This document shows positions 5,830-22,496 of a stretch of 33,846 bases of DNA, piece after piece. How positions within the stretch are numbered: the first letter of the stretch is position 1; every line of letters begins with the position of its first letter. This DNA is from Bacillota bacterium (GTDB lineage: Bacteria; Bacillota; Bacilli; Alicyclobacillales; SLC66). Location of the stretch: positions 1 through 33,846 of the forward strand of contig JAJZEE010000035.1 of the NCBI GenBank assembly GCA_021805735.1, written 5' to 3'. Below the pieces are notes generated by a model. It was given only the letters and a program-made list of their open reading frames with translations. It ran no database searches and was not told the origin of the DNA. Made by a program: the position numbers and the translations under genes.

Positions 5830-5891
5830 CCTCCGCCACCTCGCCACACATCGGATCATGCGCCACTTCTGACTTGCTTAACGCCATCGAC

Positions 5892-6030
5892 GGAATGAAA
5901 AAGCGCCTACGGCGTTTTTCAGGAAGGAAAGTGCCTCGCCTGGACGGATCGTGCGTTGTACTGCAGCGAGTTTTGCGGCCTTTCGGCCGCACCTGTTTGA
6001 GCGGCAGTACAACGCACGATCCGTCCAGGC
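5892..6030 (-). repeat. palindromic repeat element, copy E (27-bp perfect stem, 39-nt loop with inner 7-bp hairpin)
   Basis: Arms 5938..5964 and 6004..6030 are perfect inverted repeats (GCCTGGACGGATCGTGCGTTGTACTGC). Loop 5965..6003 contains TGCGGCC-TTTC-GGCCGCA. 5' flank carries a second hairpin GAAAAAGCGCCTACGGCGTTTTTC. Near-identical to 22358..22496. Confidence 0.92.
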
Positions 6031-6056
6031 ATAGCAGGAACCATCGCACGCACGGG

Positions 6057-10475: not shown

Positions 10476-10600
10476 TCTCGAAAATGCGTCTGCTCTGCAG
10501 GGATCGTGTGCTGTGCCGTCTTTCGGACACGGCCGCGCCGAACTCGCCTCGGCACAGCACACGATCCCTGCAGAGCGAGTGTTCCCTACTGCTGGCGCTC
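10476..10600 (+). repeat. palindromic repeat element, copy D (26-bp perfect stem, 33-nt loop)
   Basis: Arms 10492..10517 and 10551..10576: GCTCTGCAGGGATCGTGTGCTGTGCC / GGCACAGCACACGATCCCTGCAGAGC. Loop GTCTTTCGGACACGGCCGCGCCGAACTCGCCTC matches the loops of the copies at 15861-16192. Confidence 0.9.
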
Positions 10601-15860: not shown

Positions 15861-16012
15861 ATCCCGGAAAATGTCCCTGCCTGCCGGATTCATATGCTGT
15901 GCCCCTGCTCAGACACGGCTGCGCCGAACTCGCGACGGGCACAGCATATGAATCCTGACGAGCGGGTTTTTCATTCCCGGTTATTGGTGGCGCGCAAGCT
16001 CCATGAAGGTCT
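15861..16012 (+). repeat. palindromic repeat element, copy A (18-bp perfect stem)
   Basis: Arms 15887..15904 GATTCATATGCTGTGCCC and 15937..15954 GGGCACAGCATATGAATC; flanks ATCCCGGAAAAT and TTCCCGGTTATTGGTGGCGC. Confidence 0.9.
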
Positions 16013-16192
16013 ATCCCGGAAAATCGATCATCTCTGCCCGCCGGAATCGTATGCTGCGCCGCTTCTCAAACACGGCTGCGCCGAACTCGCCTCGGCACAG
16101 CATACGATTCCGGCCAAGCTGGTTTTTCTTCCCGGTTATTGGTGGCGCGAAACGGTGAGATTTTGCTTCGCAAAACTCAGACATGAAACTCG
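16013..16192 (+). repeat. palindromic repeat element, copy B (20-bp stem, one mismatch)
   Basis: Arms 16041..16060 CCGGAATCGTATGCTGCGCC and 16094..16113 GGCACAGCATACGATTCCGG (single C/A mismatch); same flanks as copy A. Confidence 0.9.
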
Positions 16193-16300
16193 ATCCCGGA
16201 AAATCGCACGGCCGTTCCTGCCAGTCGGATTCCTATACTGTGCCCCTGCTTGAAACCGTCTACGCCAAACTCGCGTACAATTTCAAAATCCTCCCTTGCC
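16193..16300 (+). repeat. decayed/truncated palindromic repeat element, copy C
   Basis: Begins ATCCCGGAAAATCG, left arm GGATTCCTATACTGTGCCC, diverged loop TTGAAACCGTCTACGCCAAACTCGCG; right arm is recognisable only as degenerate TACAATTTCAAAATCC and the 3' flank is missing. Confidence 0.8.
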
Positions 16301-22181: not shown

Positions 22182-22309
22182 CTAGGGGAGCAGTGATAAA
22201 CCCAATTTAGGCATGCGCACAGCGGTAGATATAGCGTCCGACTGAAGCCTCGGACGCTATATCTGGAGTGACCGCGCCTGCTTTGCGGACTTTATCACTG
22301 CTCCCCTAG
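22182..22309. repeat. 128-bp palindromic/MITE-like element with 19-bp perfect terminal inverted repeats and internal 15-bp hairpin
   Basis: TIRs CTAGGGGAGCAGTGATAAA (22182..22200) and TTTATCACTGCTCCCCTAG (22291..22309); inner arms AGATATAGCGTCCGA (22227..22241) / TCGGACGCTATATCT (22250..22264). Confidence 0.88.
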
Positions 22310-22357: not shown

Positions 22358-22496
22358 GGAATGAAAAAGCGCCTACGGCGTTTTTCAGGGATGAAAGTGA
22401 CTCGCCTGGACGGATCATGCATTGCACTGCAGCGAGTTTTGCGGCCTTTCGGCCGCACCTGTTTGAGCGGCAGTGCAATGCATGATCCGTCCAGGC
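22358..22496 (-). repeat. palindromic repeat element, copy F (27-bp perfect stem, 39-nt loop)
   Basis: Arms 22404..22430 and 22470..22496 (GCCTGGACGGATCATGCATTGCACTGC); loop identical to the copy at 5892..6030; same total length of 139 bp. Confidence 0.92.

Follow-up and report, generated by a model that had tools for sequence, protein, structure and literature searches.

A palindromic repeat family of a Bacillota genome may act as a folded RNA strand around a conserved internal loop

The window (the whole 33,846-nt stretch of DNA that was analysed) carries two copies of a palindromic element whose stems differ by paired changes, which raises the question of what keeps the arms of such an element complementary while their sequence changes. 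The original prediction had offered selection for a folded RNA or single-stranded DNA (ssDNA), or arm-to-arm correction, as answers. Direct comparison of the sequences bore out both 139-bp copies at their predicted positions (Table 1), together with the identity of their 39-nt loops, and of the nine differences between them three fall in the 5′ flank and the other six in the stem. These six form, exactly as had been claimed, three compensated pairs (5951/6017, 5955/6013 and 5959/6009), and the stem stays perfect. In copy 1 this perfect stem encloses a loop at 5965-6003, which is identical in the two copies as predicted but is not a plain loop, since inside it a mismatch with two G-C pairs leads to an asymmetric internal loop, which is conserved, and this in turn to a 7-bp apical hairpin. 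Folded as RNA, copy 1 reached -85.9 kcal/mol (z = -9.8, with 0 of 200 shuffles as good), and its 93-nt palindrome folded as DNA gave -46.8 (z = -13.8 against shuffled sequence). The satellite hairpin at the 5′ end also stands alone in the genome, where BLAST returned a 100% match at C2:19425-19456 and more on contigs C34, C3 and C61.

Table 1. Positions of the repeat copies in the window and of the parts of copy 1.
Feature	Position	Strand	Remarks
Copy 1	5892-6030		139 bp; 5′ satellite hairpin, long stem and inner loop
5′ satellite hairpin GGAATGAAAAAGCGCC-TAC-GGCGTTTTTCAGG	5892-5923	.	32 nt; separate module, terminator-like in looks
5′ arm of the 27-bp outer stem, copy 1	5938-5964	+	From fold and covariation
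Internal-loop strand A, GC-GAGTT	5966-5972	+	Columns (nearly) invariant in 29 copies; common to all subfamilies
Apical hairpin TGCGGCC-TTTC-GGCCGCA	5974-5991	+	Helix 2; 98.5% of cells paired, one compensated pair
Internal-loop strand B, TGTTTGA-GC	5994-6002	+	TGTYTGAGC over all subfamilies
3′ arm of the 27-bp outer stem, copy 1	6004-6030	+	From fold and covariation
Stretch exactly missing at the orthologous G001 site	5878-6037	.	160 bp; no target-site duplication
Subfamily-2 copy, 27-bp arms, module GCGAGTTCGGCGCGGCCGTGTCCGA	10492-10576	-	Sense to both flanking genes; in G001, not in G002
Subfamily-4 copy	15886-15955	-	Member of local array
Subfamily-2 copy	16040-16114	-	In array with 15886-15955
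Truncated copy	16215-16290	-	One arm lost; third array member
Copy 2 (twin of copy 1)	22358-22496	+	Architecture as in copy 1; no counterpart at the orthologous G001 site

Many copies exist beyond those originally noted. The host genome is a 3.76-Mb, 170-contig Bacillota MAG, with the window as contig 152. In it a BLAST search with the element gave 49 matches, and a covariance model built from 29 copies found about 30 strong and about 30 weaker loci, many of which also score on the opposite strand. The pattern GCGAGTTN{8,20}TGTYTGAGC matched exactly at 70 sites against 0 for the reversed pattern; the spacer limit of this pattern excludes the window's own subfamily (spacer 21 nt), and the genome therefore holds about 100 copies altogether, about 30 of them close and about 70 in sister subfamilies. 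The sister species G001 and G002 have their own expansions of the repeat, and in G010, from another genus of the family, a subfamily keeps the module on an unrelated but paired stem. Outside the genus, 15 other genomes (251 genomes of the class searched) had 1-2 pattern matches each, near the level of the reversed control, and the expansion in this direct topology is therefore confined to this genus, with the related G010 subfamily. Searches of plasmids with the element (BLAST) and for the hairpins of loci L182 and L255 gave no match. Two observations concern the surroundings of copies. The spacer of the local array in the window contains a small hairpin, TGAGTTTTGC-GAA-GCAAAATCTCA at 16153-16181, that is also present in spacers at, for example, L015, L117, L129 and L137. 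In G002, composites at L117, L122, L125, L137 and L142 begin with a subfamily-3 hairpin whose 3′ arm is partly lost, and a subfamily-1b hairpin comes immediately after it.

Comparison of the copies showed that the sequence of the stem is free to vary yet is kept paired. Across 36 pairs in the 29 copies, 97.8% of cells were paired against a shuffled mean of 92.7%, and changes on both sides were found at 18 pairs and in 49 cells, far above the 4.9 and 10 obtained with shuffles, whereas slid controls collapsed. In the outer stem, 17 of the 29 pairs had changed on both sides. Some of the compensated changes are transversions (A-T to T-A in 9 copies and A-T to C-G in 4), and compensated changes are also found between orthologous copies of the sister species, although the approximately 10 orthologous pairs, read by eye, mostly have one-sided changes, with three compensated ones (C-G/T-A, G-C/A-T and A-T/C-G). 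Orthologous stems gather unpaired changes in place, which counts against a reading as an RNA fold. What does not vary with the stem is the internal loop GC-GAGUU / UGUYUGA-GC, fixed while its surroundings change. Every subfamily has GC-GAGTT and TGTYTGA-GC with the GC/GC ends pairing and two adjacent G·A oppositions (tandem G·A), flanked on one side by the outer stem, which varies, and on the other by a short apical hairpin. A kink-turn identity of this module was considered and is not claimed, the unpaired residues being unlike the 3-nt-bulge pattern of kink-turns.

The pairing constraint is visible on one strand. On the GCGAGTT...TGTYTGAGC strand, G·U exceeded A·C by 42 to 16 distinct subfamily-position cells (p = 0.0009) and by 94 to 17 in total, counted over the inner 20 pairs of 149 copies from three species, the copies being related so that distinct cells are not fully independent. 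The unpaired flanks had no excess of changes of the G·U-making kind (39:46 and 39:64; loop 1:20), so the G·U excess is not a general mutation bias. Of the original alternatives, a folded single strand is thus supported by the covariation and by the G·U excess on one strand, while arm-to-arm correction is unlikely to account for everything, since correction should not favour one strand. The three findings that had been named as refuting the original prediction were looked for and none turned up: copies are numerous, changes in their stems are paired, and Rfam gave no matching family.

Orientation bears on whether such a strand would be RNA or DNA. Copies between co-directional genes are overwhelmingly sense, with 38 sense and 3 antisense in this genome (p = 1e-8; counted over 805 kb around the elements with simple home-made gene calls) and 70:13 in the three species together. 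Third-position GC skew tells leading from lagging genes well, and among elements outside leading-strand co-directional gaps 5 point leading and 12 lagging; the orientation is therefore not set by the direction of replication. Because the sense bias goes with transcription and not with replication, a fold in RNA is preferred to one in ssDNA. Several placements count against an RNA role: copy 1 is antisense to both of its neighbours, one of three antisense copies in this genome, copy 2 sits between convergent genes, and some copies lie between divergent genes. That antisense copies might simply be young was rejected, since two of the three in this genome are also present in G001, and age therefore does not explain them.

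With middling confidence, and from sequence comparison, we favour a BIME-like interspersed repeat whose functional unit would be a folded single strand of about 100 nt, most probably acting in RNA. A fold in RNA is favoured because pairing, strand asymmetry and sense bias combine in the window's family. Transcripts that read through the intergenic region would adopt the long hairpin fold, the tandem-G·A internal loop of which would be recognised by a factor of the cell. The duplex of about 27 bp would then alter the fate of the mRNA, either through double-strand cleavage of the RNase III type or through protection or separation of the flanking cistrons. The copies themselves may spread in a larger mosaic unit with small satellite hairpins and may often be lost by deletion.

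The copies are not conserved between sister species, which also counts against the RNA-fold reading. G001 exactly lacks the stretch around copy 1 (Table 1), and G002 is likewise without copy 1 but retains CATGGCAG|GGACCATCG, which looks like the 3′ edge of the element. At copy 2, the gap in G001 is what a deletion between GCAG repeats would leave, other 'empty' sites retain half-palindromes, and several absences resemble deletions at short direct repeats (GCAG, GCAC). A recent insertion of the window copy was therefore not accepted as proven, given the apparent 3′ edge in G002 and the fit of the copy-2 gap to a GCAG deletion, and these comparisons do not tell gain of copies from loss. A separate palindromic element occupies 22182-22309, with inverted ends GGGAGCAGTGATAAA, an inner palindrome and CTAG on either side, and has many near-identical copies in G001 and G002; it looks like a clean insertion of the MITE type because G001 has a single CTAG and no element at that site.

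The core of the repeat also recurs in other taxa, joined the other way round. The same two strands closed on the other side, TGTTTGAGC-GNA-GCGAGTT (TGTYTGAGC-GNA-GCGAGTT), were found at at least 80 loci in IMG/VR, a count that overstates independent cases because many of the matches are near-identical relatives of few loci (some are also without a clear stem); two control patterns with one base changed had 2 matches each. Among 300 Bacillota genomes the rejoined core was found at least 45 times, in 11 genomes of eight genera, against 0 for the reversed pattern. It sits on long hairpins in other Bacillota, in phage contigs and in Variovorax, and in 36 of 55 distinct contexts it forms the top of a clear, often very long stem. 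Its single-mismatch variants are mostly TGTC, the T/C variant also seen in the window's family; a double variant that recurs, GAAC-GNA-GTGA, represents a compensated change of G-C to A-T. In 20 copies from G069 and G313, two genomes of one genus, the core is invariant, whereas as many as four Watson-Crick pair types occur at a single position of the stem; of the 280 stem cells, 254 are Watson-Crick, 10 G·U and 3 A·C, and the closing pair is G-C in 15 copies and A-T in 5. A swap in the side of closure with the internal loop unchanged is what would be expected of a folded module recognised in three dimensions. In other Bacillota, however, the rejoined core is antisense in 10 of 10 cases in one genus, or unbiased, so a universal role as sense RNA does not hold; in those Bacillota, the core may accordingly be read as ssDNA, or the rejoined form may work differently.

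The arrangement and surroundings of these hairpins were also recorded. A Variovorax plasmid has an inverted pair of rejoined-core hairpins about 400 bp apart, as in G069 and G313. Overall, loci L368-L374 (G069, G313) and L388 (Variovorax) form inverted pairs 300-460 bp apart, with one at about 900 bp, each within a single intergenic region, in two phyla. A second recurrent internal loop (GTTAAG / TTTTAGC) is carried by many long hairpins (L266-L295, L368-L379) of several Bacillota genera and phage contigs. In the draft genome G248 many contigs (L381-L387) stop no more than about 50 nt from the core, as would happen if the assembly broke at the hairpin.

The family had not been recognised by name in the original prediction, and within what was searched this holds, with the qualification that its core recurs elsewhere, possibly including the BRE repeats. 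Rfam at the gathering cut-off returned nothing relevant for the window and 34 related or module-bearing loci apart from one tRNA, and the matches below the cut-off were almost all to miRNA hairpin models. A literature search for the literal core sequences found no paper. In arrangement the element is like BIMEs and other hairpin repeats, yet it lacks the tag and length of REP and the target duplication of MITEs. REP elements are palindromes of 20-40 nt with a GTAG or CGTC tag at the foot, and their folded strand is read by TnpA-REP. Like the REP/BIME system with its RAYT, the present family consists of high-copy intergenic palindromes in mosaic arrays and clusters, with several subfamilies per genome. 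Unlike REP, its palindrome is about 93 nt long, its foot has the consensus TCGCC...GGCATGGCAG (29 copies) without a GTAG or CGTC tag, and its conserved part is the internal loop where that of REP is the foot and tag. Palindromes derived from IS200/IS605 likewise form hairpins without target duplication, and Y1 genes are present in this genome; no left and right end pair was found here, however, and orientation is independent of replication. Integron attC sites carry R′ GTTRRRY and R″ RYYYAAC boxes at the hairpin base, whereas direct reading of the sequence and consensus found no GTTRRRY at the foot. The elements bcr1 (Bacillus cereus group), NEMIS and YPAL are comparable as interspersed non-coding hairpin repeats of 70-300 bp, but are described as MITEs, and the repeat was set apart from them by description, having no target duplication; the combination of terminal inverted repeats and target-site duplication that marks a MITE is absent, with no duplication at 5878/6037 in G001. 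Elements such as bcr1 are described as MITEs with terminal inverted repeats, often near coding sequences and transcribed (PMC3733652). BRE is a repeat of about 90 bp, intergenic and with tandem copies, in betaproteobacterial genera, with Comamonadaceae among the families from which it is reported, and in B. pertussis one element lies at 3605317-3605401 (PMC3110155). It resembles the present repeat in length, intergenic location, tandem copies and spread across genera, and the Variovorax locus with the permuted module falls in Comamonadaceae; it differs in phylum and in topology from the window's element. BRE is possibly the likeliest named relative of the rejoined form, judged on taxonomy and the Variovorax locus only, and a core shared with it is to be taken only as a lead.

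It is possible, but in our view doubtful, that the element is instead an ssDNA substrate, that is, a non-autonomous mobile element moved by a HUH (Y1)-like enzyme that reads the folded strand, with the sense bias reflecting exposure of the non-template strand during transcription. The mosaic units and arrays, the presence and absence between species without target-site duplication, and the inverted hairpin pairs in another genus and in Variovorax all agree with such a substrate, and the permuted module contains GCGNAGC, an unusually stable DNA mini-hairpin. The genome has 8 Y1 matches, but the two that were inspected have the look of common IS200/IS605 genes, one being next to a TnpB-like gene and the other a typical short TnpA, with no palindrome shown at their ends, and no enzyme linked to the repeat was found among the genes inspected. 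Lagging-strand targeting should moreover tie orientation to the direction of replication, which it does not follow, and several absences resemble GCAG/GCAC deletions, so that presence and absence do not by themselves indicate gain by transposition.

Improbable is a neutral palindromic repeat in which template switching or arm-to-arm correction equalises the arms, the loop being kept only through recent copying. Compensated transversions, and the few compensated pairs that arise between orthologues of close species, would suit such a process, but correction should be symmetric and G·U exceeds A·C on one strand, the sense bias is left unexplained, and recent copying cannot explain a loop module that is the same over the subfamilies and on the unrelated stems of a second genus and that recurs in other taxa. 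Very improbable, finally, is a bidirectional terminator or insulator between genes that is selected only as a strong hairpin: long G+C-rich intergenic hairpins, and a satellite hairpin AAAAAGCGCC-GGCGTTTTT that resembles a bidirectional terminator, speak for it, but no terminator-like or promoter site was scored in the region, the long hairpin lacks a T-run, most copies lie in one orientation in co-directional gaps and not in convergent ones, and the conserved internal loop is not something that a terminator requires.

To our knowledge, intergenic palindrome families of bacteria have usually been described genus by genus, with a separate sequence for each repeat. In the present case a two-stranded core of 16 nt persists while the long stems can be replaced, and in other families and phyla the core is found rejoined on unrelated hairpins, where it tolerates the same variant and its closing pair shows a compensated change. 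We tentatively propose that one module (UGUYUGA-GC and GC-GAGUU with tandem G·A) is the target of a widespread cellular factor, that unrelated interspersed hairpin repeats in Bacillota, phages and Betaproteobacteria acquired it independently of one another in two circularly permuted forms, and that the module alone is read while one stem can stand in for another. If one factor does read the core, many unnamed repeat families could be grouped under one mechanism and a single bait could find the factor; in this genus, the sense bias makes a role in RNA directly testable.
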